A stretch of 62,239 nt of DNA, taken from contig NZ_AWTC01000016.1 in the NCBI RefSeq assembly GCF_000497245.1, positions 1 to 62,239 on the forward strand. The letters run 5' to 3'. The position numbers were made by a program, and so were the translations under genes. Origin of the DNA: Sporolactobacillus laevolacticus DSM 442 (GTDB taxonomy: Bacteria > Bacillota > Bacilli > Bacillales > Sporolactobacillaceae). The notes under the pieces were generated by a model. It had not been told where the DNA came from, searched no databases, and saw only the letters and a program-made list of their open reading frames with translations. This document shows, in pieces, positions 33,866 to 62,088 of this stretch. How positions within the stretch are numbered: the stretch's first letter is position 1; the number at the start of each line of letters is the position of its first letter.

Positions 33866-33872
33866 TCCGCCC

Positions 33873-39775: not shown

Positions 39776-39840
39776 GTTTTCGTACTCCTAATGATTGTTT
39801 GGTTTGCCTGCGTGTGCTTGATGCAGATGGAGCAGGGGTT

Positions 39841-39966
39841 ATCGGTCTGTTTTTTATTTTTATCGATCTTATTGAAAGTTTTATCGGTCTCTTTGAAAAA
39901 AATATCGGTCTGTTTCGCAGATTTATCGGTCACTTTTTAAAATTTATCGGTCTATTTGCGAAAGTA
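39841..39966. repeat. 21-bp periodic array 1 (six units)
   Basis: Cores ATCGGTCT/ATCGATCT/ATCGGTCA begin at 39841, 39862, 39883, 39904, 39925 and 39946, always 21 bp apart, with T/A-rich spacers (TTT...AAA). The left flank (from about 39792, TTTGGTTTGCCTGC) is shared with array 2 at 48500. On the minus strand it reads heptads of the form TDKxxKQ. The rest of the 39776-40310 gap holds an MFS remnant and a terminator. Confidence 0.9.
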
Positions 39967-40018
39967 AACGTACTGCGTTAGCTTATCTCTTTATAAGATA
40001 GCGGTAAAATGACAATAA

Positions 40019-40183
40019 TACAAGCTGCCACATGCGCCGCGTTTTTCGTTGCTCGGAAGCTTATTATCGCTCGCTATGCCTCTTGATCTAATTTTTTCAG
40101 GATTATTTGCGGAACAGCTCGGTGTGCACCACTGGTTACTCATTTCCGGCATCGCTATTATTTTGATTACTTTGCTCGTGTAG
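40019..40183 (+). pseudogene. C-terminal remnant of an MFS transporter
   Basis: 54 codons open to TAG 40181, reading FSLLGSLLSLAMPLDLIFSG, then LFAEQLGVHHWLLISGIAII and LITLLV. This is the last two membrane helices of an MFS permease (PL-x-x-GPLAE-like loop and WFLISGI-like helix). No upstream part survives; array 1 lies immediately to its left. Confidence 0.6.
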
Positions 40184-40224
40184 CGGTGGCTTTCGATTCG
40201 GTCCTAGATTAATCAATAGTAAGT

Positions 40225-40263
40225 AAAGTGCTATGAACTTGATCAAATTCATAGCACTTTTTT
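40225..40263 (+). terminator. Terminator-like hairpin, locus 1
   Basis: AAAGTGCTATGAA (40225-40237) pairs perfectly with TTCATAGCACTTT (40248-40260), followed by more T on the plus strand; the minus strand has only TTTACTT. A related hairpin at 48653 has a compensatory base-pair change, so the two are homologous. Confidence 0.85.
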
Positions 40264-40310
40264 ATCTCCGCATCAACTTAGATTTACATGAGCTCTCATT
40301 TCTTAATAGA

Positions 40311-41393
40311 TTATAAACTAAGATAATCCTTCTCAAAGTCTTTCAGTGACGAATAATTTTTTATTGGTTTATGTACTTTAACATATTCGTTAGCGTACAC
40401 ATCCATCATTCGATCAAAAGCTTCTGCAAATTCTTCGAGATTGCAGGGATCGAACGCTTTCATCAAATTAATTGCTGCAGTTCCATATTCCTCATGCATC
40501 TCATTATAAAATTGCTGACAACACATAGCTGTCATTAGTGATAAATGCACATCATTTCTTTTAGCTGCAGAATACACCTTGTTTCTCCAGTTAGAATATA
40601 TTTCTTCGTACGTACCTGTTAAAGCGTCCGCCGTTGGTATCGGCGGCTGATCTTTAAATGACTTACCCACTTCACGATGAAGCTGTCTAACCGATTTGAT
40701 CATGTCGGTTGCAACTGCTTTAATATCCTGTATACTCGGTGCATGAATCAAATCATTGAACTGTCTTTCAAAGTTATCTGGTACTTTCTCCATTTCCATT
40801 ATCTCATGTAAATGCTCTTTAACACCGAATCGGAAATAGCTGTGGTTCAATAAACAGATCACTTGCTTGACACAATCAAGAATGGTTGCAGAATAATATC
40901 TACACTGACTCATTTCATCAGCCAGCATAAGATTAGCATATTCTAGCATGGCTTCTTGCAATTGAGACCCTGCTTTGTCATAGATCTCCAGAGTCAAAGG
41001 TGCTTTCAAAACTGCGAGTGCCTGCTGTTTCAACTTTTCAAAGCGTTCCTTATACTCTGCTGCAGCGCAATAAACAATATCAACATCGATCACATGAGAT
41101 ACAAGTACGTGCTCGTAGGATGCCATCCGTTCTAATTTCTCCCACGGTGAACAATAAATATCATAACCGATATCCTCCATAATAAAGCAGGACGCGATTT
41201 CCCAAGCCTTTTCATCATTGATGACAATCAGCAAATCAAGATCTGATTTTTCATAAAATTGCCCTGTATAAAATGAACCGCACACGCCAATTAATGCAAC
41301 CGTATCAGGACAATCGCGTTTCACTCGTTCAATGACAATCTCAATAATTTTCCTATTTCTTTCAAATAATTGTTCTTTTATATGATTCTTCAT
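40311..41393 (-). CDS. Nucleotidyltransferase-domain protein
   Basis: 360 aa from the ATG at 41393, after a G-rich ribosome site. Residues 35-60 hold the polymerase-beta-type motif GVCGSFYTGQFYEKSDLDLLIV (GS...G, then DxD), with a third acidic residue in SHVIDVDIVY. The C-terminal 200 residues are helical, as in aminoglycoside nucleotidyltransferases. The substrate could be an antibiotic, a tRNA or a protein. It occupies the place where a second dgkB copy seems to have stood, since a dgkB 5' remnant lies 90 bp upstream and a dgkB-type terminator lies downstream. Confidence 0.75.
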   Translation of the reverse strand: MKNHIKEQLFERNRKIIEIVIERVKRDCPDTVALIGVCGSFYTGQFYEKSDLDLLIVINDEKAWEIASCFIMEDIGYDIYCSPWEKLERMASYEHVLVSHVIDVDIVYCAAAEYKERFEKLKQQALAVLKAPLTLEIYDKAGSQLQEAMLEYANLMLADEMSQCRYYSATILDCVKQVICLLNHSYFRFGVKEHLHEIMEMEKVPDNFERQFNDLIHAPSIQDIKAVATDMIKSVRQLHREVGKSFKDQPPIPTADALTGTYEEIYSNWRNKVYSAAKRNDVHLSLMTAMCCQQFYNEMHEEYGTAAINLMKAFDPCNLEEFAEAFDRMMDVYANEYVKVHKPIKNYSSLKDFEKDYLSL

Positions 41394-41479
41394 CTTCAAT
41401 TCCCCCCATCACCATTATATCTCTACTACTTTTACACTCGTCCAATACATGCGTCACAACAAAAAATTACTTTTTCCCA

Positions 41480-41563
41480 AGACAATCCAGAATGTAGGCG
41501 ATATTTTTCTTCGCCAGATTGCGTCCTGACGTTATATTATAAATTAATCTTGCCTTCCTTTGG
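41480..41563 (-). pseudogene. 5' remnant of a second dgkB gene
   Basis: About 84 bp closely match the first codons of dgkB at 49556-49638. Read on the minus strand it gives KARLIYNITSGRNLAKKNIA and YILD; dgkB has KARLIYNPTSGRELAKRNIA. Several differences are synonymous, so the copy diverged as a coding gene before being lost. Its start codon is destroyed and nothing downstream remains. Confidence 0.75.
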
Positions 41564-41636
41564 AAAAAAAGCAGAAGTGTTCATTTTTACTTGACGGCTA
41601 CAACGTTTTTAATTGCATACTCCAAAGCCAAATTGA

Positions 41637-42176
41637 TTACCTCGTTCCTTGAGCGATAGCTTTCGTTTCATGAACTGTACCATACGGATGCTCAGGTGGG
41701 GCATAGACAACGTAAACTTTAAGGGGGCGATTACCTGTATTGGTTAAATTGTGCCATTTTCCTGCAGGTATCATAATTGCATAGTCATCGTACGCCATAA
41801 CTTGAAAATCTAAGTTATCTCTGCTATCACCCATTTGAACAAGCCCCTGACCTTCTTCAATCCGTATGAACTGGTCAGTTGTTGGATGGACTTCCAAACC
41901 TATGTCTTCACCAACATTAATACTCATCAAAGTTACTTGAAAATATTTACCTGTCCATAAAGCGGTGCGGTAATTGTTGTTTTGTTTGGTTGCTTGGTCA
42001 ATATTCACTACGAATGGTCTTGTTCCATAATCTTGTAATAGGATGTTTCCATATGGATTATAGTTGTGGTTGTTCCAGTCGTAATAGTGGGGATTCCAAT
42101 CATAATTCCAGTTATTATTCCAGTGGCATTGCATTGGATTATGCAATTGATGGTGATGGCATGAATTAGGGTACAT
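41637..42176 (-). CDS. Cupin-domain protein with His/Asn/Trp/Tyr-rich N-terminus
   Basis: About 179 aa from the ATG at 42176 (GAGAGG nine bases upstream; a nearer ATG at 42182 is possible). Residues 1-45 are a low-complexity stretch rich in His, Asn, Tyr and Trp, such as YPNSCHHHQLHNPMQCHW and NYDWNPHYYDWNNHNYNP. The rest is a single cupin: VGEDIGLEVHPTTDQFIRIEEGQG and MIPAGKWHNLTNTGN, with metal-ligand His residues. The make-up is reminiscent of Bacillus spore-coat-associated cupins. Location and function are inferred. Confidence 0.7.
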   Translation of the reverse strand: MYPNSCHHHQLHNPMQCHWNNNWNYDWNPHYYDWNNHNYNPYGNILLQDYGTRPFVVNIDQATKQNNNYRTALWTGKYFQVTLMSINVGEDIGLEVHPTTDQFIRIEEGQGLVQMGDSRDNLDFQVMAYDDYAIMIPAGKWHNLTNTGNRPLKVYVVYAPPEHPYGTVHETKAIAQGTR

Positions 42177-42384
42177 ACACATGTTCCTCTCAGTGATTTT
42201 CTTATTGACCATTTATCCTATGCAACTACCTAGTTACAGGTAAGCAAAATGGGTGAAAGTCCACTTGAACCTACACATGAGACAATTCGGACAGCCTTGA
42301 GACCGCTTTTGCTATTAAAAGAACCACCATCTCCGTAGAAAGAAGAGAAGAGGGATAGAAGTGTTTATTAAATGAATTTCGTCT

Positions 42385-42430
42385 CCATAAAAAATAAAAT
42401 AGCCGGACAGATCCTGGCTTTCCCTGTCCG
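42385..42430 (-). terminator. Terminator of the CoA-disulfide reductase gene
   Basis: CGGACAG (42404-42410) pairs with CTGTCCG (42424-42430). On the minus strand it runs into TATTTTATTTTTTATGG. It lies about 75 bp after the reductase stop. The remaining sequence back to 42213 shows no supported gene. Confidence 0.75.
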
Positions 42431-42502
42431 ACAACCCATAATTTTGTCCTTCACTTTCATAACACTAATTCAATCGAACTGATCGTTAACCTTTTGTATT
42501 GG

Positions 42503-44149
42503 TTACTTTACTATTTCTGGAAAAACGCTACTGTACAGTTTATAGCCTCCATCCAGATTCTTTACCGAATAACCGTTCTGAGCAAGAATACGCGCCGCAA
42601 GATAGCCGCGAAGACCCACCTGACACGTCACAATCAGATCGCGATTTTTCGGAATCTCACTTAACCGCTCACGAAGATCGTCTAAAGGGATATTCACAGC
42701 CCCTTGGATAGTTCCGTTCCCATATTCCTGTTCTGTCCGAACATCAATAAGCATTTCGCCTTGTTGTACCAGTTGATCGACTTCGTTCCACTGAACATTC
42801 TGCACATTGCCGTCCAACAGATTTTCTGAAGCATAGCCGATCAAATTAACCGGAGCCTTGGCCGAGTTAAATGGCGGAGCGTAGGCAAGTTCAAGTTCGG
42901 TCAGATCATTGACAGTCATTTGTCCATGAATCGCTGTGGCAAGTACATCAATGGTCTTATCAACTCCCTTCTTGCCAACCGCCTGAGCACCTAGCACCTT
43001 CCCAGATTCAGGGTCAAAGAGCAGTTTGAGTGTCATCTGTGCACTACCTGGATAATAGGACGCATGATCCGGCGGACTCGTGTGCAGTGCCTCGTAAGGG
43101 ATATTGAATCGCTGCAATAGTTTCTCACTCAATCCAGTGACAGCCGCAGACAAATCAAAGGCTTTCACTATTGATGTACCCAGAGTTCCCTTGTAACTGC
43201 GTTTCATTCCGCTAAGAATATCGGCAACCATGCGTCCTTGGCGATTTGCCGGAGAAGCGAGCGGAATGACCGCTGGTCGACCACCGACAGTTTGAGCAAC
43301 CTCTATTGCATCTCCAATGGCATAGATGTTTGAATCGCTGGTCTGCAGATGATCATTCACTGATATACTTCGGCGTATGCCAAGCGCTAAGCCTGCTTGC
43401 TCAGCTAAGGATGATTCTGGAACAACACCGACCGACAAAAGGGTCAAATCTGTCTTTTTGCGCATGCCATCATCGAGAACCAGAATCGCTCCATTTTCAT
43501 CGAAGCCAGTGACGGTTTTCCCTTTAAGCACTTCAATGCCGTGCTTTTTCAGTTCTGCTTCTACCACAATAGCCATTTCTGGATCAAGTGGAGGAAGGAC
43601 TTGGTGCTCTCGTTCAACGATCGTCACTTTAAGTCCGTGTTCCGCCAGATTCTCGGCCATTTCAATGCCGATAAAGCCGGCACCGATGATTACCGCGTGA
43701 TCCACTTTATGCTGCTGCAGGTACTGAACAATGTGTTCAGCATCCGGAACATCGCGCAGCGTGAACAAATGATCGGCTTGGTCGATCCCTTCAATTGGCG
43801 GTCGCATCGGACGCGCTCCTGTTGAGAGAATCAGTACGTCGTAGGTCTCTTCATAAGATTTTCCATTATGATCAATGAGCACCTTCTTTTGTTCTCGATC
43901 AATACGGGTGACTTCGCTTTTCGTCCGCACATCCAGACGAAAACGCTGATACAGCTTTTCTGCCGTCTGCACAAGCAGCTTCGACCGTTCTTTAATCACA
44001 CCACCAATAAAATAAGGAAGCCCGCAATTGGCAAAAGAAACATAAGGACCGCGTTCCAAGACAATAATTTCTGCCTCTTCATTCAACCGGCGAAGCCGCG
44101 TTGCTGCCGACATACCGCCGGCCACCCCTCCAATAATTACATATTTCAT
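42503..44149 (-). CDS. cdr: CoA-disulfide reductase with C-terminal rhodanese domain
   Basis: 548 aa. FAD loop IIGGVAGGMSAATRLRRL, active-site Cys42 in SFANCGLPYF, NAD loop IIGAGFIGIEMAENL, and FAD site YAIGDAIEV. The rhodanese domain at about 455-548 has LIDVRTEQEYGNGTIQGAVN and the catalytic Cys in TCQVGLRGYLAARI. The enzyme should reduce CoA disulfide or CoA persulfide with NADPH and handle sulfane sulfur. It is third gene of an operon with two rhodaneses (13 bp gap) under the operator at 44520. Confidence 0.9.
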   Translation of the reverse strand: MKYVIIGGVAGGMSAATRLRRLNEEAEIIVLERGPYVSFANCGLPYFIGGVIKERSKLLVQTAEKLYQRFRLDVRTKSEVTRIDREQKKVLIDHNGKSYEETYDVLILSTGARPMRPPIEGIDQADHLFTLRDVPDAEHIVQYLQQHKVDHAVIIGAGFIGIEMAENLAEHGLKVTIVEREHQVLPPLDPEMAIVVEAELKKHGIEVLKGKTVTGFDENGAILVLDDGMRKKTDLTLLSVGVVPESSLAEQAGLALGIRRSISVNDHLQTSDSNIYAIGDAIEVAQTVGGRPAVIPLASPANRQGRMVADILSGMKRSYKGTLGTSIVKAFDLSAAVTGLSEKLLQRFNIPYEALHTSPPDHASYYPGSAQMTLKLLFDPESGKVLGAQAVGKKGVDKTIDVLATAIHGQMTVNDLTELELAYAPPFNSAKAPVNLIGYASENLLDGNVQNVQWNEVDQLVQQGEMLIDVRTEQEYGNGTIQGAVNIPLDDLRERLSEIPKNRDLIVTCQVGLRGYLAARILAQNGYSVKNLDGGYKLYSSVFPEIVK

Positions 44150-44162
44150 TGAGTTTCCCTCC

Positions 44163-44465
44163 TTAAAATTCGATCGGTCCGTGCCAGTTCATCATCCCGC
44201 CAACCATATTCTTCACCTTAAATCCACTTGCGGATAAGATGGCAGAAGCCACACCGCTTCTGCTTCCAGAATGACAAACAATAATGTGCTCTTGATTTTT
44301 GTTGATTTCATCAAGACGATTCTGGATTTTATTAACCGAAATATTCTTGGCACCAGGAATATGCCCCTCAGCAAATTCAAAAGGTTCGCGAACGTCAATA
44401 ATACTTACAGGCGCATGACTGCGTATCCGTTGCTCGACCTCTTCGGGTGTCCACTCTTCATACAT
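44163..44465 (-). CDS. Single-domain rhodanese (sulfurtransferase)
   Basis: 100 aa. SIIDVREPFEFAEGHIPGAKN and the active-site loop VCHSGSRSGVAS contain the catalytic Cys. It moves sulfane sulfur between thiols (persulfide intermediates). Strong AGGAGG. A CstR-type operator lies 55 bp upstream and the reductase follows 13 bp downstream. Confidence 0.9.
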   Translation of the reverse strand: MYEEWTPEEVEQRIRSHAPVSIIDVREPFEFAEGHIPGAKNISVNKIQNRLDEINKNQEHIIVCHSGSRSGVASAILSASGFKVKNMVGGMMNWHGPIEF

Positions 44466-44519
44466 GCTGTTTTCCTCCTTGGAACAACTTTTTATTTTTT
44501 ATCAAAAACTGCGCATCTA

Positions 44520-44537
44520 TATACCCATATGGGTATA
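44520..44537. promoter_or_regulatory. CstR operator 1
   Basis: TATACCCATATGGGTATA, a perfect 18-bp palindrome between the two rhodanese genes. It belongs to a set of four (also 45201, 47869, 48340) with the form TATACC(C) N4-6 (G)GGTATA typical of CsoR/CstR repressors. Confidence 0.85.
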
Positions 44538-44554
44538 TTTTTTCCCATAAAAAA

Positions 44555-44875
44555 TTAAAACCAGCGATTCATTCCGCCACGCACATTAGTCACTTTTTCA
44601 TAACCTGCTTTTTTCAAAAGCTTACAGGCCACCGAGCTTCTCATACCGCTTTGACAAATGACAACCACTTCTTTTTCTTTCGGAATCTTATTGAGATGAT
44701 TGCTCAGGGTTTGCAGTGGAATATTGACAAAACCCGGAATTGACCGACCGCTGAATTCTGCTTTTGTACGTACGTCAAGAAAATAGTTACCCTTTTTACT
44801 CGGCAGATAGACTTCCTTTAGCTCTGAAGTGCTTATCTTCTTAATTTTGGGTTTGCAAAAGAACATGCATCTCAT
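44555..44875 (-). CDS. Single-domain rhodanese (second)
   Basis: 106 aa, with a short basic N-terminus containing two Cys (MRCMFFCKPKIKK) and then a rhodanese fold: YFLDVRTKAEFSGRSIPGFVN and the catalytic loop VICQSGMRSSVACKLL. AGGAGG before the ATG. It lies 47 bp downstream of cstR, so it is likely co-transcribed with the repressor. The Cys-rich N-terminus is not part of the domain and might bind metal. Confidence 0.9.
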   Translation of the reverse strand: MRCMFFCKPKIKKISTSELKEVYLPSKKGNYFLDVRTKAEFSGRSIPGFVNIPLQTLSNHLNKIPKEKEVVVICQSGMRSSVACKLLKKAGYEKVTNVRGGMNRWF

Positions 44876-44922
44876 GATTGATTTCCTCCTTACGCCGTTG
44901 GACTCACTTCATCTTGATCCCT

Positions 44923-45186
44923 TTAACGGCTTTTCACCAGCATTTGAACCGCTTCGTTTATGATTGATTCAGCTGACCCTTCACCGTTTTCAATCTGTTG
45001 CCGCAAGCAACTCTCGAGATTCTTTCCAATAACCAAACCTAGTGCACGGTCCATTGCCGACCGTGCAGCCGTCATCTGGGTGACCACGCTGCGGCAGTCT
45101 TCTCCCTGTTCCATCATGTGAATAATTCCGCGGATTTGCCCATCAATCCGTTTCAATCGATTGGTCATTTGCGATGTATACTCCAT
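44923..45186 (-). CDS. cstR: Persulfide-sensing repressor CstR (CsoR family)
   Basis: 87 aa. The all-helical CsoR fold is clear: TNRLKRIDGQIRGIIHMMEQ, then CRSVVTQMTAARSAMDRALG. The Cys residues fall at positions 31 and 60, as in CstR of Staphylococcus aureus. The CsoR copper-ligand His is replaced by Asn in GKNLESC, which argues for persulfide rather than Cu(I) sensing. Every neighbour handles sulfane sulfur, and the promoter overlaps an operator of the matching type. Persulfides should cross-link Cys31 and Cys60 and release DNA. Confidence 0.9.
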   Translation of the reverse strand: MEYTSQMTNRLKRIDGQIRGIIHMMEQGEDCRSVVTQMTAARSAMDRALGLVIGKNLESCLRQQIENGEGSAESIINEAVQMLVKSR

Positions 45187-45200
45187 AAGCGGCCTCCTTT

Positions 45201-45244
45201 TATACCGATACAGGTATATTATTCAACTTATTTTTTGAAGTCAA
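45201..45244 (-). promoter_or_regulatory. cstR promoter and CstR operator 2
   Basis: On the minus strand TTGACT (45244-45239), 17 bp, TAATAT (45221-45216). The operator TATACCGATACAGGTATA (45201-45218, plus reading) overlaps the -10, giving tight autorepression. Confidence 0.8.
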
Positions 45245-45341
45245 GCAAATAGGAACAGTCCCGCAGTAGTTTCGCACCTACGCGCTTAATCTATAACCTA
45301 CCCTTATCAAGAGGGGGGGCTTATTCAATGTTTTGATCTGA

Positions 45342-47810
45342 TTAAATAAATAGATTCACATTTGATTTTGCTGCTTCGCCTAAATAGCTGGCCACACCGC
45401 CGAATTCAACACCATCGATAATTTCTTCACGTGCAACGCCCATGAGATCCATACTCATCGTGCAGGCAACCATTTTCACGCCAAGCTGTTTTGCACGCTC
45501 GATCATAACAGCAAGACTGTCAACATTCTTGTCAGCCATGACCTTTTTTATCATTTTCGGCCCTATGCCACCCATATTCATCCGTGAGAGCGGCAGATGA
45601 TCCGCGCTCTTCGGCAGCATCATACTGAACAGTTTGTCGGTTCCCGACTTGCTAATTTTTGTATTGGCATGCCTCTTAATAATATTTAGCCCCCAGAAGG
45701 TGAAGAAAAGCGTGACTGGCTTGCCCATCGCAGCCGATCCAGTCGCAATAATAAACGTTGCGATTGCTTTATCCAAATCGCCGTCAAAAACCACCATCGT
45801 CGTTGCACCGCCAGATTCTGGGGAAGCTTGCAACGCATGAGCAGCATCGTCATGGCTAGCCTTAACTCCCTTCACCAGCGTCGCAACCACCTTATTGCCG
45901 ACAATATCATTCGTCAGCAATTGATTACCTGTCGCATTTGCCCAAGCAACAATATCCTTGTGAAAACCAAAATCAGAGGCCTGCACTTGCAGGACGTCTC
46001 CTTTATTCATCTTCTCCATGGATTGCTTGACCTTGAGAATAGGACCTGGGCACTGCAGCCCGCAAGCATCTACTTCAATTTTTGTACATTGCGATGCTTG
46101 CTGCGTAGTTGTTGAAGCCGACTCACTTTGGGCTGCCAGATGGGGCTGCGTTTTCATCTGACCCGTCTCATACTTTGCTTGTTCATAAGTTTTTAAACCG
46201 CCGTCAAGATTATAGACTTCAAAACCATTTAGTGCCAAAATGCGCGCGGCATTATAACCACGAAGTCCTACAGAGCAATAAACGTAAATCGGCTGTTCCT
46301 TGGGAAGCTCCGCCATCCGCCCTCTTAGTTCGCCTCGTGGAATATGATGACTGCCAGGAAGTTTTCCGGCAGCAAGCTCGAAGGATTCGCGAACATCCAA
46401 GAAATACGCCTGTTTCTCAATCAGTGCATCGACCTCATGCCATTCAATCGTCTTCACTAATCCTTGCCGCTGATCCGCAGCGATATAACCAGCATAGTTG
46501 ATCGGATCTTTTGCCGATGCATACGGCGGCGCATACGCTACTTCAATCAACTGAAGATCCTCAACCGATCCGTTTAAACGCATCACTGCTGAAATCATGT
46601 CAATGCGTTTGTCCACGCCTTCCGTACCAATGGCTTGCGCACTGAGAATTTTCCCATGTTCATCATAGATCACTTTCAATTCAATCGGTGCTGCGCCGGG
46701 ATAATAGCCGGCATGGGAATTGGGATGTAAATGAACTACCTGATAGTCAATGCCTGTCTGATTCAAAAGGCGTTCATTTTTCCCTGTGGTTGCCACGGTG
46801 AGCGCAAAAACCTTAGCCACAGCTGTTCCCTGCACAGGCGGATTCTTCGCATCTAATCCGTTTAGATAGTCTGCGAGAAACCGTCCTTGCCTATTTGCCG
46901 GGCCAGCAAGTGGAATTAACGTTGGTGTGCCAGTGATAAAATCTTTAACTTCGATCACATCGCCAATCGCAAAAATATCCGGAACACTTGTTTCAAAGTG
47001 CTCGTTAACAACAATCGCACCTTTAATGCCCGTCTTCACACCAGCTTTTTGCGCCAATGTACTGTCGGGTAAGACACCGATCGCCATCACGGTCAGGTCG
47101 GTGTCTATTTCTTTGCCGCTGCTAAGCACTACCGTATGCCCGTTGTCGGAAAAACGCGCTACACCATCATTTAAAATGAGTTGAACACCATGAAGTTCAA
47201 TTTGCTCATGAACAAATTGCGCCATTTCAAAGTCAAGCGGAGCCATCACTTGCGGACTCGCTTCAACCAGTGTGACCTCCAAGCCGAGATCGGCAAGGTT
47301 TTCAGTCATTTCCAGCCCAATAAAGCCGCCACCGATCACCGCAGCTTTGTGCACTGTATGAGCATCGATATAATTTTTTATACGTTCAACATCCGGTATA
47401 TTCCGTACGGAAAAGACATTATCTGCGTGATCAAGTCCCTGGATCTTAGGGACAATCGGTTTTGCGCCAGTAGAAAGGATTAAACGGTCGTAATGATCCG
47501 TTGCCTCTTCCCCGTTCAACACATTTTTTACCGTAATGACGTGTTTTTCCGGATCTACATCAACCACTTCTGTGTTGTTGTGCACCTCAATATTGAATTC
47601 CTTGACCATGTTCTCAACCGATTCGACAAGCAGCGCGTCTTTTTCACGGATGGTACCGCCGACATAATACGGCAGCCCGCAATTAGCAAAAGAAATGTAA
47701 GTACCTTTTTCATACATGACAATTTCATTTTCTTCACTTAATCGCCTGAGCCGTGTCGCTACACTTGCACCGCCGGCAACGCCGCCAACAATAATGATTC
47801 GCTGTTTCAC
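45342..47810 (-). CDS. CoADR-rhodanese-TusA-DsrE multidomain sulfur-transfer enzyme
   Basis: 822 aa from a GTG start after GGAGGG. Order of domains: FAD/NAD disulfide reductase (1-about 450, VGGVAGGASVATRLRRL, Cys44 in SFANCGLPYY, GGGFIGLEMTENLADLG). Next a rhodanese (about 460-555, Cys in VYCSVGLRGYNAARI). Then a TusA/SirA domain (about 578-645, DACGLQCPGPILKVKQSM), and last a DsrE/F-like domain (about 655-822, MVVFDGDLDKAIATFIIATG, Cys in VACTMSMDLMG). A sulfane sulfur could be relayed from reductase or rhodanese to TusA and DsrE thiols within one chain. It is transcribed under operator 3. Confidence 0.9.
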   Translation of the reverse strand: MKQRIIIVGGVAGGASVATRLRRLSEENEIVMYEKGTYISFANCGLPYYVGGTIREKDALLVESVENMVKEFNIEVHNNTEVVDVDPEKHVITVKNVLNGEEATDHYDRLILSTGAKPIVPKIQGLDHADNVFSVRNIPDVERIKNYIDAHTVHKAAVIGGGFIGLEMTENLADLGLEVTLVEASPQVMAPLDFEMAQFVHEQIELHGVQLILNDGVARFSDNGHTVVLSSGKEIDTDLTVMAIGVLPDSTLAQKAGVKTGIKGAIVVNEHFETSVPDIFAIGDVIEVKDFITGTPTLIPLAGPANRQGRFLADYLNGLDAKNPPVQGTAVAKVFALTVATTGKNERLLNQTGIDYQVVHLHPNSHAGYYPGAAPIELKVIYDEHGKILSAQAIGTEGVDKRIDMISAVMRLNGSVEDLQLIEVAYAPPYASAKDPINYAGYIAADQRQGLVKTIEWHEVDALIEKQAYFLDVRESFELAAGKLPGSHHIPRGELRGRMAELPKEQPIYVYCSVGLRGYNAARILALNGFEVYNLDGGLKTYEQAKYETGQMKTQPHLAAQSESASTTTQQASQCTKIEVDACGLQCPGPILKVKQSMEKMNKGDVLQVQASDFGFHKDIVAWANATGNQLLTNDIVGNKVVATLVKGVKASHDDAAHALQASPESGGATTMVVFDGDLDKAIATFIIATGSAAMGKPVTLFFTFWGLNIIKRHANTKISKSGTDKLFSMMLPKSADHLPLSRMNMGGIGPKMIKKVMADKNVDSLAVMIERAKQLGVKMVACTMSMDLMGVAREEIIDGVEFGGVASYLGEAAKSNVNLFI

Positions 47811-47868
47811 AATGAGCCCTCCTGGTGCATGTATTCATGGCGATGAATTCGCCAATGTTCAGCCTTAT

Positions 47869-47886
47869 TATACCCTATGGGGTATA
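47869..47886. promoter_or_regulatory. CstR operator 3
   Basis: TATACCCTATGGGGTATA; on the minus strand it lies between TTGTAA and a TATAAT (18-bp spacing), about 60 bp before the multidomain enzyme start. Confidence 0.8.
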
Positions 47887-47989
47887 TAGTTTACAATCTT
47901 TTCTCAATACCCAAAAAATGAGAAGGGGGTTTCCTGTTCTCTTTTTGGTCAATTATTGATTTCTTCAACCTATTGCTGGTCAAGCAAGA

Positions 47990-48223
47990 TTATGCATGAA
48001 CAAAACTCATGATTCGATTAGGATCAAATCCGAGTACCCATTGACCATTAACATTTGTTTGTGGCACACCCATTTGTCCGGTTGTTTCCACAAGACGTTG
48101 ACCAGCAACTGGATCTTGTTGCACATTGACTTCTTTAAATGGCAATCCTTGTTTTTCAAGAAAATTCTTCACCATATGGCAATAAGGACAAGTATTGGTC
48201 GTGTACACAGTAATTTCATTCAT
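47990..48223 (-). CDS. Glutaredoxin-like protein
   Basis: 77 aa. The thioredoxin-fold active site is TTNTCPYCHMVK with Cys12 and Cys15, followed by the cis-Pro element MGVPQTNVNG and GFDPNRI. Size fits NrdH/YruB-type glutaredoxins. Under CstR control it probably reduces persulfidated or mixed-disulfide proteins. AAGGAG before the ATG; operator 4 lies about 120 bp upstream. Confidence 0.88.
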   Translation of the reverse strand: MNEITVYTTNTCPYCHMVKNFLEKQGLPFKEVNVQQDPVAGQRLVETTGQMGVPQTNVNGQWVLGFDPNRIMSFVHA

Positions 48224-48339
48224 CGCTAATAACTCCTTTAAAATGTTTTTTCAATCTTAAAGTCAAAAGTTTAATTGCTTATCACTAGCGAGCCGATATC
48301 CTCAAAACCTAACATGAGATTCCGACTACAATTGCAGTA

Positions 48340-48357
48340 TATACCCATACGGGTATT
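48340..48357. promoter_or_regulatory. CstR operator 4
   Basis: TATACCCATACGGGTATT, one mismatch from a perfect palindrome; on the minus strand it overlaps a TATACT -10 for the glutaredoxin gene. Confidence 0.75.
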
Positions 48358-48499
48358 CAGGGAACTATTTTGCTCATAAATTTTCTTCATCCTTATTAAT
48401 CACATACACGTCACGGCGGAGTGCGGAGAAGTGATCATTTTTACGTTGACGTTTTGTTTGGTTTGCCTGCATGTGCTTTATACGGATGGCACAGGGTTT

Positions 48500-48583
48500 A
48501 TCGGTCTGTTTTTTGTTTTTATCGGTCGCTTCGAAAAAAATATCGATCTGTTTCGCAGATTTATCGGTCTTATCGTAAAATCC
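48500..48583. repeat. 21-bp periodic array 2 (four units)
   Basis: Cores at 48500, 48521, 48542 and 48563 (ATCGGTCT, ATCGGTCG, ATCGATCT, ATCGGTCT), exactly 21 bp apart. From about 48452 to 48600 the sequence is closely related to the array 1 region, including the TTTGGTTTGCCTGC flank. The 48224-48699 gap otherwise holds operator 4 and the hairpin at 48653. Confidence 0.9.
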
Positions 48584-48652
48584 ACGTACAGAGTTGGTTC
48601 ATCTCTTTGTAAAAGAGCAATAAATTACACAAATCGCTTGCACACGCATGCG

Positions 48653-48692
48653 AAAGTGCCATGAACCCCATTGAGTTCATGGCACTTTTTTC
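48653..48692 (+). terminator. Terminator-like hairpin after dgkB, locus 2
   Basis: AAAGTGCCATGAA (48653-48665) pairs with TTCATGGCACTTT (48676-48688). Six T follow on the plus strand; on the minus (dgkB) strand only TTTCGC follows. Homologous to 40225-40263 with a compensatory C-G for T-A change in the stem. Confidence 0.85.
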
Positions 48693-48699
48693 AGCCTGT

Positions 48700-49638
48700 T
48701 TACTGGAGCTGTTTCACTTCCTGCTCAATGTTCAGCAGATGCGCATCCTGCGTTTCTTTCGGGACCATCAAATGCAAGTGGTGATAGAGATTGACGATTT
48801 CGCCGGGCAAATCACCGCCATATTCACCATCGATATTCAGCTGCATTTTTTCTTGGGATTCGATCTTGATGCGGCTTGCTTGAGCATAGATGACTTTCTC
48901 ATCTTTCATATGCTCACCGCGAGTGGCCATGGATGCGAGGCGGATGAACTCCGCCAGGTTGGCCGCCTTCAAAATGATCAGGTCGAAAAGGCCGTCATTC
49001 ATCTTCGCCTCGGGGGCAAGCTTTTCGAATCCGCCGACTGAATTGCTATTGGATACGAGAAACAGCATGATGTCGCCTTCAAAGGTGCGGTCGTCATAAT
49101 TAATTTTCACTTTGATTGGCCGGATTGACGGGAGCATTTCAATGCCCTTGATAAAATAGGCCATCTGGCCAAGCATGGTTTTCAGCTTACTCGGTACATC
49201 ATAGGTCAATTCCGTTAGCTTGCCACCGCCAGCGATGTTAACGAAATAATTGTCGTTGACTTTGCCAATATCAATCGGCATCTCATGCCCATTGCAAAGC
49301 ACATCACAAGCTTTGACAATGTCACGGGGAATGCCAACGGCGCGGGCGAAATCATTGGTCGTTCCTAAAGGCAGGATGCCGAGCTTCGGGCGATAATCCA
49401 TTTCCGCAAGTCCATTGATCACCTCATTAATGGTGCCGTCACCGCCTGCCGCCACTACCAGGTCAAATTTTCGCTTGACTGCTTTGCGCGCGCCTTTCGT
49501 TGCATCTCCCTCGGCTTTGGTCGCATAGGCTGATGCTTCATAACCTGCATCCTCAAGACGATCCAGAATGTAGGCGATATTTCTTTTCGCCAGTTCGCGG
49601 CCTGACGTTGGATTGTAGATTAATCTTGCCTTCTTCAT
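48700..49638 (-). CDS. dgkB: Diacylglycerol kinase DgkB (YerQ-like)
   Basis: 312 aa from the ATG at 49638, after GGGTGA. Lipid-kinase signatures: YNPTSGRELAKRN at the N-terminus, VAAGGDGTINEVINGLA (nucleotide loop) and LGILPLGTTNDFARA. NIDGEYGGDLPG is near the C-terminus. A soluble diacylglycerol kinase returning diacylglycerol from lipoteichoic-acid synthesis to phosphatidate. It follows gatB as in Bacillus, but array 3 lies between them and rlmCD has been moved away. Confidence 0.92.
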   Translation of the reverse strand: MKKARLIYNPTSGRELAKRNIAYILDRLEDAGYEASAYATKAEGDATKGARKAVKRKFDLVVAAGGDGTINEVINGLAEMDYRPKLGILPLGTTNDFARAVGIPRDIVKACDVLCNGHEMPIDIGKVNDNYFVNIAGGGKLTELTYDVPSKLKTMLGQMAYFIKGIEMLPSIRPIKVKINYDDRTFEGDIMLFLVSNSNSVGGFEKLAPEAKMNDGLFDLIILKAANLAEFIRLASMATRGEHMKDEKVIYAQASRIKIESQEKMQLNIDGEYGGDLPGEIVNLYHHLHLMVPKETQDAHLLNIEQEVKQLQ

Positions 49639-50018
49639 GATTATCACCCAATCAAACTCTATATATAAATATCTACGTTCAAAAGTGGAAAAAGGAGTCT
49701 TCCTTATCGGCTTAAATTTAAGATGTCATATGTCATGGTACGATTTATCGGACGCTTTTGATTGTTTTTATTCATTGTTTCCGATCTCACTTACTGCTAA
49801 TCAGCGATTGGAACAAATCAATTGTTTCTGAGACAATCATGGATGCGTTTACGTAAAACTGCAACTGCACACAGTTCGCTCTCTTATCGCGAACTTCCTT
49901 ATTTTATTATATTGTAAACAATTTTTAAAATCAAAATCGATCACGTGAACGTTTCAATGGTTCGGTTTCCAATGCAGTCGGCATTTGCCGTGGCAAATGC
50001 CTGCCGATTTAAAGCTTT

Positions 50019-50277
50019 ATCAGTCAGTTCTACGAATTTATCGATCAGTTTCAAAATATTATCGATCAGCTTGGAAAAAGTATCGATCACTTTCAAAAAT
50101 TTATCGATCAGTTTGGAAAAAATATCGATCATTTCAGTGGTGGCCGGCAGTCAATCCGGTTTTGATCACTAATAATCCGGTCGTTGCGGCATTTCATTCG
50201 GTCGTCGCAAGATTAATCCGGTCGTTACCGAAAATAATTCGGTCGTCGTCACGAATAATCCGGTCTAGTGCCAAATA
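50019..50277. repeat. 21-bp periodic array 3, two blocks of six units
   Basis: Block a: cores ATCAGTCA or ATCGATCA at 50019, 50040, 50061, 50082, 50103 and 50124. Block b: AATCCGGTCGT-type cores whose GG pairs fall at 50158, 50179, 50200, 50220, 50241 and 50262 (one step is 20). The two blocks share period but differ in core, as if each was homogenised separately. On the minus strand block a reads heptads of the form IDKFLKL. The remaining 49648-50018 sequence shows no gene. Confidence 0.88.
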
Positions 50278-50306
50278 TGGTAGCGAATTCGGCGTTTTAC
50301 CGCAAA

Positions 50307-50344
50307 AAAAGCGGGATCCCTACACAATTAGGGGTCCCGCTTTT
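50307..50344. terminator. Bidirectional terminator of the gatCAB operon
   Basis: AAAAGCGGGATCCCT (50307-50321) pairs with AGGGGTCCCGCTTTT (50330-50344) with one G-T; the minus strand has seven T after it. It lies 13 bp past the gatB stop and just right of array 3. Confidence 0.88.
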
Positions 50345-50356
50345 ACAGCGTTATTT

Positions 50357-51793
50357 TTACAGCTTGTCAATTTCTTCGAGAATGATCTTGTTGACCATCT
50401 TTGGATTGGCTTTGCCGTGTGTTTGTTTCATGACTTGGCCGACAAGGAAGCCGAGGGCGCGATCCTTACCGTTCTTGTAGTCAATCATGGACTGCTTGTT
50501 GGCTTCAAGAATTGGCGCCAGCATCTCGCGAAGTGCGCCTTCGTCGGAGATCTGAACAAGACCCTTGGCTTTGACAATTTCTTCCGGATCGCCGCCTTTT
50601 TCAATCAGGTCTTTGAAGACCTTCTTGGCGATCTTGCTGGAAATCGTGCCTTTTTCAATCAGCTGTACCAGTTTGGCCAAGCCTTTGGCGGTCATCGGTA
50701 CTTGATCGATGGTTTTGTACTTGCTGTTCAGGTACGCAGACACATCGCCCATCAGCCAGTTGGACACGAGTTTGGCATCGGCACCTTCAGCAACGGCATC
50801 CTGGAAGAAGTCGGACATCGTCTTCGCCTGTGTAAGCACCATTGCGTCGTACTCCGGAAGACCGAATTCTTCGACGTAGCGTTTTTGACGAGAATCCGGA
50901 AGCTCTGGAATTTCCGCTTCGATCCGGTCGATCCATTCCTGGTCGATCTTCAGCTTGATGATATCCGGTTCCGGGAAGTAACGGTAGTCTTCGGAGCCTT
51001 CTTTACCACGCATTACGGTTGTCGCTTTAGTTGCGTCATTATAACGGCGCGTTTCCTGAACGACTTCGCCACCGGAAAGCAGAACCTTTTCCTGACGTTT
51101 TTCTTCGTAAGCGAGCCCTTTTTCAACAAATGTGAATGAGTTCAGGTTCTTCAATTCGGTCTTTGTGCCAAATGTCGTCTGGCCGAAAGGACGGATGGAA
51201 ATGTTGGCGTCACAGCGAAGTGAGCCTTCTTCCATCTTGACGTCGGAAACATCAATGTATTGCATGATCGCTTTCAATTTTTCCAGGTAAAGATAAGCTT
51301 CATGCGGGTCGCGCATATCTGCTTCGGAAACGATTTCGATCAGCGGTGTACCGACACGGTTGAAGTCGACAAGCGAACCGGAACCGTCTTCCAAGTGGTT
51401 CAGCTTTCCGGCATCTTCTTCGAGGTGCAGACGGTGCACGCCGATCCGTTTCTTTTCGCCATCGAGTTCGATTTCAATATAGCCGTTGCGTCCAATTGGC
51501 TGATCGAACTGTGAAATCTGGTAGGCTTTCGGATTATCCGGATAGAAATAGTTTTTGCGGTCGAATTTGGTCTCACGTGAGATTTCACAATTCAGCGCGA
51601 GCGCTGCTTTAATTGCATAATCAACGGCTTCGTGATTCAAAATCGGCAGAACACCAGGATGTCCGAGACAGATCGGGCATGTGTTGGTGTTCGGTTCGGC
51701 ACCGAATTGGTTAGCGCAGCCGCAGAATGCTTTCGTTTTTGTTTTCAGTTCGACATGGACTTCAAGTCCGATGACTGTTTCAAAGTTGCTCAT
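50357..51793 (-). CDS. gatB: Asp/Glu-tRNA(Asn/Gln) amidotransferase subunit B
   Basis: 478 aa. [20 protein letters not shown] at the N-terminus, Zn-site [22 protein letters not shown] and the C-terminal YqeY-like helices ([19 protein letters not shown]). It activates Glu-tRNA(Gln) with ATP and receives ammonia from GatA. Its ATG overlaps the gatA stop by four bases (ATGA). Confidence 0.96.
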
Positions 51794-53250
51794 TTATTCA
51801 TCGCCCCTTTGGCAGGCGTTAGTGTAAACCCGGCAGTTTGTTCATAGGCGTGAGCCGCGCGATACAGTGTTTCTTCACCGAATGGTCGGCCGATCATCTG
51901 CAGGCCGACCGGAAGTCCGTCAGCGAGACCGCATGGAAGGCTGATCGCAGGAATGCCGGCAAGGTTGACTGGAATCGTTAAAAGGTCGTTTGCATACATC
52001 GTCAGCGGATCATCGATATTTTCACCGATCTTGAAGGCAGTGGTTGGTGTCGTTGGTCCGACAATGATGTCGTGATCCTTGAACACTTTCTCAAAGTCTT
52101 GCTTGATCAGCGTGCGCACTTGCTGCGCCTTTTTATAGTAAGCATCATAATAGCCGGAACTCAATGCGAAGGTACCAAGCATAATTCGGCGCTTCACTTC
52201 ATCGCCGAAGCCTTCGCTTCTCGATTTGTTGTACATGTCGATCAAATCGTTTGTTTCCGCGCGGACGCCGTAACGGACACCGTCAAAACGTGCGAGGTTA
52301 GCCGACGCTTCAGATGAAGCAATAATATAGTAAGCAGGCACCGCATATTTCGAATGCGGCAAGGACACTTCGTCCACAACCGCACCCAGTGATTCGAGCT
52401 GCTTAATGGCTGCACGGATATTTGCTTTTACCAATTCATCGATACCTTCACCGAGGTATTCTTTCGGAACAGCCACTCGAAGGCCTTTGATGTCGCCGGT
52501 CAAAGCTGCGGCATAATGAGGCACAGCTAAATCGGCACTTGTTGAATCGTGGCGATCCAGTCCGGAAATGGTTTCAAGCAGGTACGCGTTATCTTCGACA
52601 GTACGTGTAATTGGTCCTGCCTGATCCAATGATGACGCAAAAGCAACCAATCCATAACGGGATACACGTCCATAAGTCGGTTTCATGCCGACAACGCCGC
52701 AGAATGCGGATGGCTGGCGGATGGAACCGCCTGTGTCGGTACCCAGCGCAAAAAGCACTTCGCCCGCAGCGACAGCCGCTGCGGAACCGCCGCTGGATCC
52801 ACCTGGTACGCGTTCGAGATCCCATGGATTTTTCGTAATCGCAAAAGACGATGTTTCAGTTGATGAACCCATCGCAAACTCGTCCATGTTTAATTTTCCA
52901 ATGGTAATCGCCTTTTGTGCTTTTACCTTCTCAACTACGGTAGCGTCATAGAGCGGATCGTAGTTTTCAAGAATATGGCTGGCACAAGTGGTTTTCAATC
53001 CCTTTGTGACCATGTTATCTTTAATTCCGATCGGCATGCCTGAGAGAATCGCATCTTCAGCGGATCCGTTTTCGTCAATGGCCTTTGCTTCTTCTCTGGC
53101 TGCTTCTTCATTCAAGGTCAGAAACGCCTGCACATCACCATCGACATCATGAATACGCGTGAACGCTTCGTCGACAAGATCGGATGCCTTGATTTCCTTG
53201 CTATGTAACTTTTGAGACAAAGACACAAGGCCTTCTTCAAAAAGTGGCAT
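51790..53250 (-). CDS. gatA: Asp/Glu-tRNA(Asn/Gln) amidotransferase subunit A
   Basis: 486 aa from the ATG at 53250, after AAGGAGG. Amidase-signature protein with the Lys of [10 protein letters not shown] and the Ser pair of [16 protein letters not shown] and [16 protein letters not shown] forming the Ser-cisSer-Lys triad. It releases ammonia from glutamine. It lies 24 bp after gatC. Confidence 0.96.
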
Positions 53251-53274
53251 CACTATTTCCTCCTTCAGCTTCAA

Positions 53275-53568: not shown

Positions 53569-53720
53569 CATCTTTTTCACCTCCGCCAATCGGCTTCATT
53601 TGCCACCTCTTGGCAAATTCCAACAATGCTTTAATCATATCAAATACCATTGACTATATGCAATAACAGCGGCATCTAAATAGCGAAATGGATCGTAAAA
53701 TGTTTCCTTAACCCAACACA

Positions 53721-54338: not shown

Positions 54339-54348
54339 AGGCGGTACC

Positions 54349-54810: not shown

Positions 54811-55015
54811 GTCATCACGTCCTTTAATTATTAAGTATTAATTATCTATTATTAAATATACCATGTTTTTATGCTTATTTCCATTATATTATTAAATGTA
54901 GTCACTGAATAATTAATTTTGTTAATCTCTTACGTACCGTTCCGTGCGCTCTCATCTACAGGTGCGGCCGCAGGCGAACAGCGCACCTTCCGCTCCAATT
55001 AACATAGCCAAATTA

Positions 55016-55054
55016 AAAAGAGCGAAACTGCCGTAAAGCAGTTTCACTCTCTTT
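55016..55054. terminator. Terminator of the pcrA-ligA-camS operon
   Basis: AAAGAG and GAAACTGC pair with GCAGTTTC and CTCTTT around CGTAAA, with one mismatch and a small bulge, about 30 bp past the camS stop. T-rich on both sides. The remaining 54811-55083 sequence contains no supported gene. Confidence 0.7.
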
Positions 55055-55083
55055 ATCATTTATTGTTTTGCGTGCTTGACTAA

Positions 55084-56286: not shown

Positions 56287-56298
56287 CTGGAACATCTC

Positions 56299-58362
<2,064 letters not shown>

Positions 58363-58376
58363 TTATTATTGCCTTT

Positions 58377-60605: not shown

Positions 60606-60629
60606 TTAATCACTTCCTAAACTAGAGTT

Positions 60630-60745
60630 GCTGCGCAGCGTGAAGAACAAAAAAGCACACAAACACAAAGCCGGCGTATTCTGAATGCACTTGTCCCCAG
60701 AACACCGCCGTCTCAATGAAATCTCTTGTTCTTCATGCAACGAGA
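60630..60745 (-). ncRNA. Possible structured RNA between the yerC-like gene and pcrA
   Basis: On the minus strand an outer helix GCRTGAAGAACAA (two 13-base arms about 95 bases apart) encloses a hairpin with arms GGCGGTGTTCTG and CAGAATACGCC (one bulge, 13-base loop). A T-rich stretch including six T follows the inner hairpin. It could be a terminator for the upstream gene or an attenuator for pcrA. No known riboswitch class recognised. Confidence 0.4.
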
Positions 60746-60753
60746 ACAATTCT

Positions 60754-61050
60754 TTATTTATTTTCTTCTAATCGATCAATGGTCATTTTATAGCCGTCCG
60801 CACCGAAGTTGATGCAGCGTTTGACTCTGGATATCGTAGCTGTGCTGGCACCTGTATCTTCCTCGATCTGATGATACGTTTGTCCCGCCATCAGCATTCT
60901 CGCCACTTCAAGACGTTGCGATAATGACTGCACCTCGCCCATCGTGCATAGGTCATCAAAAAAGCGATAGCATTCCTCGCGATCTTTCAATGTCAGGATG
61001 GCGTCAAACAGCTGATCAAGAGATTTGCCTCTTAATTTATCAATTTGCAA
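60754..61050 (-). CDS. YerC/TrpR-family regulator
   Basis: 98 aa from a TTG start with AAGGAATGG upstream. LFDAILTLKDREECYRFFDD, LCTMGEVQSLSQRLEVARML and YHQIEEDTGASTATISRVKR match the TrpR-like YerC/YecD family (MerR-unrelated, all-helical with a C-terminal HTH). In Bacillus the homologue lies near pcrB-pcrA. Target genes unknown. Confidence 0.88.
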   Translation of the reverse strand: MQIDKLRGKSLDQLFDAILTLKDREECYRFFDDLCTMGEVQSLSQRLEVARMLMAGQTYHQIEEDTGASTATISRVKRCINFGADGYKMTIDRLEENK

Positions 61051-61427
61051 CCTTGTCCATTCCTTTCTCGTGGTTAATCCGCAACTTCATCACTTTTTAT
61101 GTTTTACGAATGTACAAATAAAAAGATGTTCTGATGCGTCAGGCGGAATCTTATGCCCTTGTTCAGACACATCCTAGTTCTTTTCTCAAGTTTGAACACG
61201 ATCTCGTCTTACAAACTCGCATAAATACTCTTTATAACATCTTACATCAATTATGGCGAGTGATAAAGTCAGAGCGAAAAATGTTTTCGCCCAGCACAGC
61301 GCGAAAATAATTTCACCTTGCAAATAACCCTTGTTGCAGCTATTTCTATTTCCATCTGTTTTCGGTTTCATCCTGTACACGTTTGTGGTAGCCTAAGATT
61401 GTATTGCTTACAAGACGTTTAAGGGAT

Positions 61428-62000
61428 GTGACGACAATTAATATTTTATGGGACTTTGACGGTACTCTTTTTGATACTTACCCCATTTATGCCAACCTCT
61501 TTAAGCGCACGCTTCATACTGATGTCTCTGAAGAGGACATATTTTCTAAAATAAAAATATCATTCTCAGAAGCGTTCTCCTATTTTGATATGACTGAAGA
61601 ACAAATCGGCGAGTTCAAACAGCTGATCAGACAGTACCCGGCGAGCGGGTTTAAGCCGTTTGATTCCGTTGAAAAAGTGCTTGACTCTGCAGACAAGAAT
61701 GTGATCATGACGCATAATAATCGCGAAGATCTTGTCCGTATTCTGCGGCACTATGATATGGAACACTATTTTACAGAAATGGTAACCGGTGATGATGGCT
61801 TTCCGCGCAAACCAGACCCGGCTTCCTACATTTATCTCGATGACCGCCATGGAATTGATTTAGCGGTTGGTGATCGAACACTCGATATTATTCCGGCAAA
61901 GAAGCTCGGCAAGAAAACTTGTCTCTTCCAGAACAAAGAAGCCGGAGCGGATTTTTATGTAGATCGCTACGATGAATTCTTTGATCGGGTATATGTCTAA
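61428..62000 (+). CDS. HAD-family hydrolase (phosphoglycolate phosphatase-like)
   Basis: About 190 aa from the GTG at 61428, but the start is uncertain because AAGGGA lies almost against it; an in-frame TTG at 61404 is the alternative. HAD motifs: WDFDGTLFDTYP (nucleophile and acid Asp), VIMTHNNRE (motif II), KPDPASYIYL (motif III Lys) and AVGDRTLDIIPAKKLG (motif IV). The cap is a small helical C1 type. It removes phosphate from an unknown small metabolite. Array 4 begins 17 bp past the stop. Confidence 0.8.
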   Translation: MTTINILWDFDGTLFDTYPIYANLFKRTLHTDVSEEDIFSKIKISFSEAFSYFDMTEEQIGEFKQLIRQYPASGFKPFDSVEKVLDSADKNVIMTHNNREDLVRILRHYDMEHYFTEMVTGDDGFPRKPDPASYIYLDDRHGIDLAVGDRTLDIIPAKKLGKKTCLFQNKEAGADFYVDRYDEFFDRVYV

Positions 62001-62017
62001 GCTAGTTTTGGCGTGAT

Positions 62018-62059
62018 ATCGGTCTGTTTCGGGAATTAATCGGTCTCTCTCCTAAAATG
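62018..62059. repeat. 21-bp periodic array 4 (two units)
   Basis: ATCGGTCT at 62018 and again at 62039, 21 bp apart, with the same TGTTTCGGGAATT-type spacer as arrays 1 and 2. Terminator-like hairpin immediately to the right. Confidence 0.75.
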
Positions 62060-62065
62060 CCGATT

Positions 62066-62088
62066 CAGAAAAACCGGGCAAGCCCGGT
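62066..62088 (-). terminator. Minus-strand terminator at the right edge
   Basis: ACCGGGC (62073-62079) pairs with GCCCGGT (62082-62088). On the minus strand the hairpin is followed by TTTTTC. It should end a transcript entering from beyond the window. Confidence 0.75.

Follow-up and report, generated by a model that had tools for sequence, protein, structure and literature searches.

What are short cores, repeated every 21 bp in the gaps between genes, doing in a bacterial chromosome? The question is raised by a 62,239-nt stretch of the 3.59-Mb genome of Sporolactobacillus laevolacticus DSM 442 (contig 16, NZ_AWTC01000016.1, positions 1–62,239; hereafter, the window), in which a sequence-only reading had noticed arrays of such cores at four loci. 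The answer that we tentatively favour, while placing it a little short of an even balance, is that the arrays are phased binding rows for a predicted sequence-specific DNA-binding protein, which would form a boundary patch between genes. The letters of the spacers are free and the spacer length is fixed at two helical turns, a combination that points to a row of side-by-side protein docks.

Arrays of the window and their family in the genus

Array 1 (39841–39966, + strand) consists of six 21-bp units with cores at 39841, 39862, 39883, 39904, 39925 and 39946, all of which read ATCGGTC except for ATCGATC in unit 2, and occupies the gap between the genes for an RlmD/TrmA-like TRAM-domain RNA methyltransferase (38390–39775, − strand) and a nucleotidyltransferase (40311–41399, − strand). 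Array 2 (48500–48583, + strand), with four 21-bp units (cores at 48500, 48521, 48542 and 48563), is located 3′ of the diacylglycerol kinase gene dgkB (48700–49647, − strand) and its hairpin. Between dgkB and gatB lie the six 21-bp units of array 3a (50019–50144, + strand), with the core ATCAGTC at 50019 and ATCGATC at 50040, 50061, 50082, 50103 and 50124; the spacers of this array alternate, forming a 42-bp dimer with 89% matches according to Tandem Repeats Finder. Array 3b (50153–50275, + strand), between array 3a and the gatB hairpin, contains six units of a second core family, AATYCGGTCGT, with the ATCCGG word at 50154, 50175, 50196 (ATTCGG), 50216, 50237 (ATTCGG) and 50258. Finally, array 4 (62018–62059, + strand) has two 21-bp units, at 62018 and 62039, and starts 18 bp past the stop codon of a HAD-hydrolase gene (61404–62000, + strand).

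Re-reading the window and counting the distances between ATCGRTC copies thus confirmed the four loci and their unit numbers, and the core positions bear out the 21-bp steps of arrays 1, 2, 3a and 4 and the single 20-bp step of array 3b. The + strand of the window carries 38 copies of ATCGRTC, with 13 pairs 21 bp apart, nine 42 bp apart and six 63 bp apart; every other distance below 130 bp is represented by at most three pairs, and none of the eight copies on the − strand is paired at such distances. The three top-scoring repeats reported by Tandem Repeats Finder in the window are arrays 3a, 3b and 1, with arrays 2 and 4 absent from its output. Arrays 1 and 2 are not independent because they share a duplicated flank (117 nt, 79% alike), array 2 being two units shorter; an 80-nt remnant of a diacylglycerol kinase gene (41478–41557) is found near this flank.

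The pattern that had been suggested for a genome-wide search, two ATCGRTC cores separated by 13 bases, has no match in the genome, since a 21-bp step corresponds to 14 intervening bases. With this spacing, the pattern yields 30 matches at 12 loci on eight contigs (reversed-pattern control, 0), and the second core, ATYCGGTC, as in array 3b, yields 21 (control, 0). The sequence-only reading had considered a functional family unlikely if no further arrays occurred elsewhere in the genome, which they do. In the genus, at least one pair of the broader core TTTAYCRRYC is present in 13 of the 15 genomes (1 to 89 pairs; controls, 0). The core word varies by genome: TTTATCG[AG]TC is characteristic of the window and S. 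kofuensis, TTTATCAACC/TTTATCAGTC of G007 and TTTACCGGTC of G013, and TTTACCAGCCG occurs at one site in G010. G001, which has no TTTAYCRRYC pair, contains about 0.9 kb of intergenic DNA (L206, 2600–3500) made up of units, mostly 21 bp long, with the cores TTCGGTCTAACTT and TTCGGTGCGACTTT.

Two gaps were followed across genomes. In seven of the 15 genomes, an array is present in the gap 3′ of the diacylglycerol kinase gene. Its core is ATCGGTC in five of them, TTTACCAGCC in one and TATCAGCC in one (three units, read by eye), and all seven arrays are antisense to the kinase gene; an 8.6-kb segment interrupts the gap in the window and S. kofuensis. In the gatB-side gap, ATCGATC is found in two genomes and TTTATCGAG in G003. 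As far as these two comparisons go, the core word can change while site and orientation stay.

Fixed pitch and free spacers

The complete chromosome of Sporosarcina thermotolerans contains 64 matches to ATCGRTC-type pairs (control, 0), evenly divided between the strands. By eye, and with variants, the right end of the array merges into a related module, TATCGTCRTTTCnnnACCTTTGACCYAC, in all 22 arrays listed. Patterns that name the core select for it; column statistics were therefore derived from elements found via this end module, which provide a fair test because they were found without the core. A strict search for the module in five Sporosarcina genomes, which missed, for instance, the genome of L077, gave 28 matches in four of them (control, 0). 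When units were allowed to depart from the core at up to two of its seven letters, at least three units preceded the module in 27 of the 28 elements, and exactly five in 17, compared with three units at none of 5600 random positions. In these elements, located through a module outside the repeats, 125 of the 133 steps are exactly 21 bp, so the spacing is not random.

Conservation within the 21-bp unit is uneven. Neighbouring units are 87–95% identical in columns 0–3, 5–7 and 20. Identity falls to 69–79% in columns 9, 10 and 19 and to 64% at the R position, and is lowest, at 26–55%, in columns 11–18; the conserved part comprises about 13 bp. The same partition is seen between genomes: across 18 site pairs with an orthologous flanking gene (54 unit pairs; L325/L129, whose two arrays adjoin opposite sides of the gene, omitted), core columns are 91.5% and spacer columns 49.2% identical, compared with 88.7% and 42.2%, respectively, at unrelated sites. 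Site pairs were placed by a rule demanding two of three cores at exact 21-bp steps, so that the 81 of 81 steps seen in the set that still included L325/L129 are biased and the fair figure is the 125 of 133 given above. Judging from these columns, spacer length is kept and spacer sequence is not.

The uneven conservation bears directly on ordinary tandem-repeat turnover, in which slippage would produce functionless arrays. Unit number does vary from locus to locus, arrays 1 and 2 also differ in it when the window is compared with S. kofuensis, and higher-order duplications are found in Jeotgalibacillus and Sporosarcina luteola. Slippage, however, would make whole units alike, whereas the observed likeness is in the cores and not in the spacers, and it leaves one common pitch across unlike cores unexplained, so we regard it as very improbable. 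A simple variable-number tandem repeat was rejected on the same grounds, because whole-unit likeness fails in spacer columns 11–18. The local homogenisation proposed for the window arrays is weak and not the main force, given that neighbouring units resemble each other in the core more than in the spacer.

An intrinsic bend is the other explanation that would need no sequence-specific protein: T-tracts in phase with the helix would curve the gap. TT or TTT is indeed present in both halves of the unit (columns 9–10 and 19–20), and array 1 is slightly more curved than its shuffles (p = 0.055). Arrays 2, 3a and 3b, by contrast, are no more curved than single-base shuffles (p = 0.15, 0.155 and 0.725, respectively, by a wedge table). 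Moreover, the top-conserved columns are those of the ATCG.TCA word and the last T rather than the T-tract at columns 9–10, and dialects such as TTTATCGGTCGTCAGCTCGA lack the second tract. Intrinsic curvature thus appears quite improbable. The suggestion that cores face one side of the helix fares better in its other form, as conserved cores and free, length-locked spacers fit a protein placed every two turns, whereas the bend fits poorly.

Is the pitch itself dictated by the choice of core? We scanned, at periods of 13–45 bp, for 8-mers of any sequence that came back with no more than one changed letter from one step to the next, leaving out homogeneous tandem repeats (one 41-bp repeat, 92% alike, was excluded in this way) and counting rows of at least four units outside frames of at least 150 aa. 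Across 60 stretches from Bacilli (1.115 Mb), rows were found at 20 (7), 21 (10) and 40 bp (3) and at no other period, in a sample that was not random, ten stretches (L392, L393, L399, L439 and L420–L425) having come from genomes known or suspected to hold arrays. The same scan of the window yielded three rows, all at 21 bp, and none was found in 250 kb of Escherichia coli or in block-shuffled sequence. New cores emerged from it, namely, TTCGGTAA in G053 and TGGTCGAT and GTTATAGT in G145.

A second Sporosarcina family, TTTATGCG, is represented by 115 pairs in G344 (control, 1) and 71 in S. thermotolerans (control, 0); the step is 21 bp in two of the listed pairs and 20 bp in the others, these being the only steps that the pattern admitted. 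Some TTTATGCG arrays stand head-to-head, one on each strand, with a few tens of bases between them (in G058 near 327, 330, 403 and 716 kb; in G344 near 766 and 2307 kb). As a separate observation, made by eye in L323, L340, L349, L359, L321, L338 and L077, the third unit from the end of ATCGATC-type Sporosarcina elements tends to deviate, with a spacer lacking TTTCCC; the units of these elements may not be interchangeable.

Placement between genes and what could act there

The 24 S. thermotolerans arrays considered here (24 of the 27 pattern clusters, three isolated pairs being omitted) lie in 11 convergent, 12 co-directional and one divergent gap. On a stricter gene call, convergent gaps account for nine of the 21 gaps with an array and six of the 82 others (Fisher p = 0.0003); divergent gaps are rarer among those with an array (1 of 21 versus 15 of 82), although not significantly so (p = 0.18). 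Position is not random either, randomness of spacing or position being what the sequence-only reading had named as an argument against a functional family. Across the Bacillales loci, only four of 64 arrays fall inside frames longer than 150 aa, that is, the arrays are dispersed and mostly intergenic, and a coding repeat (21 bp being seven codons) was ruled out for these loci. Matches to the triple pattern in other taxa and in 26 viral stretches, by contrast, are mostly coding or simple repeats and for this reason were not used as relatives.

Strand preference gives a mixed picture. First-core pairs are all on the forward strand in the genome of the window (30 of 30, over eight contigs) and in G007 (34 of 34), and the second core in the former genome is found 17 times forward and four times reverse; contig orientation or a real polarity may lie behind the excess. 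The sequence-only reading had asked for array orientation to be compared with strand, and no tie is seen in S. thermotolerans, with its 32 forward and 32 reverse pairs; a replication-directed sign was rejected on this count despite the bias in the genome of the window.

A terminator-like hairpin is found within 300 bp of 13 of the 24 S. thermotolerans arrays, by a home-made finder run without a shuffle control, and many arrays may, to judge by these neighbourhoods, lie between transcripts. The sequence-only reading had placed such a hairpin to the right of every array of the window. By eye, this plainly holds for arrays 2 and 3, where hairpins unlisted in the hairpin scan separate each array from the 3′ end of a gene: one at about 48653–48690 (− strand) separates array 2 from dgkB, and one at about 50305–50345 (− strand) separates array 3b from gatB. 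For array 1, the nearest strong hairpin listed by the scan (40225–40260) is about 260 bp away, and the hairpin to the right of array 4 belongs to another dispersed repeat, whose left edge it forms. The left part of the latter repeat (62067–62239, no strand assigned), has 46 matches in the genome including that of the window; its opening hairpin (AAAAACCGGGC...GCCCGGT) is accompanied by a GC-rich tract, and none of its 45 other genomic alignments reaches array 4.

Proximity to gene 3′ ends and to hairpins would also suit a boundary acting at the RNA level, where the repeats would function in read-through RNA at gene ends through structure or a repeated RNA–protein site. Both strands of six arrays were folded; four of the 12 resulting structures do somewhat better than their shuffles (z −1.9 to −2.9), but the other eight range from −0.9 to +0.6, and the good ones have no visible common structure. 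Searches against Rfam gave no match in the window and, for 20 array loci, a single S-adenosylmethionine (SAM) riboswitch away from the array searched for, so none over the arrays. Furthermore, array orientation relative to the gene varies between loci, and the locking of free spacers to 21 bp has no obvious reason in RNA. We consider this possibility improbable, and structured RNA in general receives little support from the Rfam searches and the folds.

The neighbouring genes do not point to a shared partner. Those adjoining the window arrays encode the TRAM-domain RNA methyltransferase, the nucleotidyltransferase, DagK, GatB, a disulphide reductase and the HAD hydrolase, and among 63 neighbour proteins in S. 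thermotolerans there are three pairs of paralogues and no family represented at more than two loci. A cognate neighbour gene was thus rejected, and the protein would have to act from elsewhere.

The main rival to the binding-row reading is that the arrays are purely selfish, or that they began as selfish DNA and were later put to use. According to this scenario, the arrays form a dispersed, largely selfish family, akin to repetitive extragenic palindromes (REP) or miniature inverted-repeat transposable elements (MITE), that copies itself between gaps, with the cores as sites of its own recombinase acting from elsewhere. The clearest case in point is G013, where 10 of the 21 clusters read start with a letter-for-letter identical unit within a larger dispersed repeat and several have further spacers in common, with their order kept; this Sporolactobacillus genome contains longer composites of modules similar to the 62067–62239 repeat, with the array inside. 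Dialects are genome-wide, as if one master copy had spread, convergent gaps are preferred, and the Sporosarcina elements are stereotyped, most often consisting of five units and the terminal module. Nevertheless, Sporosarcina spacers are nearly random between loci, unlike those of recent copies, and the orientation of the array relative to the gene is the same in every orthologous neighbour pair printed, L325/L129 included (neighbours at least 62% alike as proteins). Neither target duplication nor a terminal inverted repeat was established: the Sporosarcina elements have a conserved right end and no clear left end, and the G013 composites were aligned without resolved ends. Given also that gene families are common to at most two neighbour sets, we hold a selfish family to be unlikely, albeit a serious contender.

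Under the binding-row reading, each array would be a row of docks, with one copy or dimer of the protein per two helical turns. The protein would read the core, and docking side by side, probably cooperatively, would cover one face of the DNA in the intergenic gap with a nucleoprotein patch. Between transcription units, such a patch could serve as a boundary on the DNA, whether topological or transcriptional, in a manner loosely comparable to the bacterial interspersed mosaic elements (BIMEs) of enteric bacteria, and the core dialects would change with the specificity of the protein. The weakest step of this proposal is the one from a row of sites to a boundary.

Several observations weigh against the proposal. 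No cognate protein was found. The enrichment in convergent gaps was computed from 21 gaps with simple open-frame calls. The arrays are also patchily distributed: four of 299 sampled Bacilli genomes, that of the window among them, contain the ATCGRTC triple, and 400 kb of the Sporolactobacillus genome G014 contained no non-coding array of at least four units. The blind scan is similarly concentrated, as 18 of its 20 rows come from the ten preselected stretches, in few places and with several in one long L399 array, and four genomes supply most of them. From the remaining 50 stretches (929 kb), the scan recovers two arrays only, both at 21 bp, and, at three units, single rows at many periods plus three each at 20 and 21 bp. 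In addition, genomes carry several core families (ATCGGTC, ATCGATC and the 20-bp TTTATGCG in S. thermotolerans; two in the window), which would call for several proteins or for a single tolerant one, and some of the spread, as in G013, resembles copying of larger repeats.

A broader generalisation appears possible but doubtful, namely, that Bacillales carry a not yet described class of chromosomal element, helically phased site rows in which the core word is lineage-specific and pitch, place and orientation are constant, read by a predicted fast-changing DNA-binding family that builds intergenic boundary complexes. If the arrays do bind a protein, an unnamed factor would organise tens of loci per chromosome in some Bacillales, and the dialects would then provide matched sites in a natural series, with which the protein could be found and the joint change of factor and sites studied. 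The separability of core and pitch from the spacer makes the binding idea directly testable. Overall, the interpretation given in the sequence-only reading is partly supported.

Several further features surround the window arrays. Arrays 1 and 2 flank the 8.6-kb segment (39795–48570), which includes the kinase-gene remnant and genes for pyridine-nucleotide-disulphide reductases with rhodanese, TusA and DsrE domains. Identity to S. kofuensis is 96.6% over 41510–52000 and 84% over 38393–40545, a contrast that looks as it might after recent transfer or recombination. A gene with GmrSD-type restriction endonuclease domains, possibly a defence gene, is located near array 1 (36524–37924), and two 300-nt copies, 88% alike, lie 1.7 kb apart at 32159–32458 and 33870–34169.

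Comparison with known systems

No description of such arrays was found in the open-access literature that was searched, a search whose scope left out subscription papers and preprints. Among the systems with which they were compared, CRISPR arrays have identical repeats of at least about 21 bp and spacers of similar or greater length. A CRISPR-like array was ruled out, as the whole unit here is 21 bp and its conserved part about 13 bp. Plasmid partition by the protein omega (PMC4498918) is a further system for comparison, likewise in Firmicutes. Its heptads are contiguous, unlike the arrays, which have one core per 20–21 bp with free spacers. Many copies of a protein read a short repeated core in the plasmid system, as is predicted for the arrays.

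The iterons of plasmid and phage replication origins offer a parallel. According to a review, plasmid iterons are generally in helical phase, and a disturbed phase can inactivate the origin (PMC5043065); like the arrays, with their predominance of 21-bp steps (125 of 133), iterons are repeats in a helical step, and they form a site row for one protein, as the arrays are proposed to do. Unlike iterons, the arrays occupy many chromosomal loci per genome and have no common neighbouring initiator gene; three array queries matched no plasmids and two matched no phages, and a plasmid or phage origin was rejected.

Direct repeats upstream of parAB in Deinococcus radiodurans, which have been assigned an origin- and parS-like function, likewise form rows, and a table in that study shows two repeats to be bound poorly and a single repeat not at all (PMC7671480). 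They constitute, however, one region per secondary replicon beside parAB, with 18-bp and 14-bp repeats (PMC7671480), whereas the arrays are found at tens of loci without such neighbours.

The BIMEs and REPs of enteric bacteria are also dispersed, being short intergenic elements with internal repeats, and BIME-2, to which gyrase is attracted in E. coli, are described as intergenic gyrase sites (PMC6379681). REPs are palindromes, whereas the arrays consist of directly repeated units whose spacers are free, and the 12 folds revealed no consistent hairpin. Dispersed intergenic elements and phased site rows are each known already; it is their combination with lineage dialects and, in one genus, a conserved end module that appears new.

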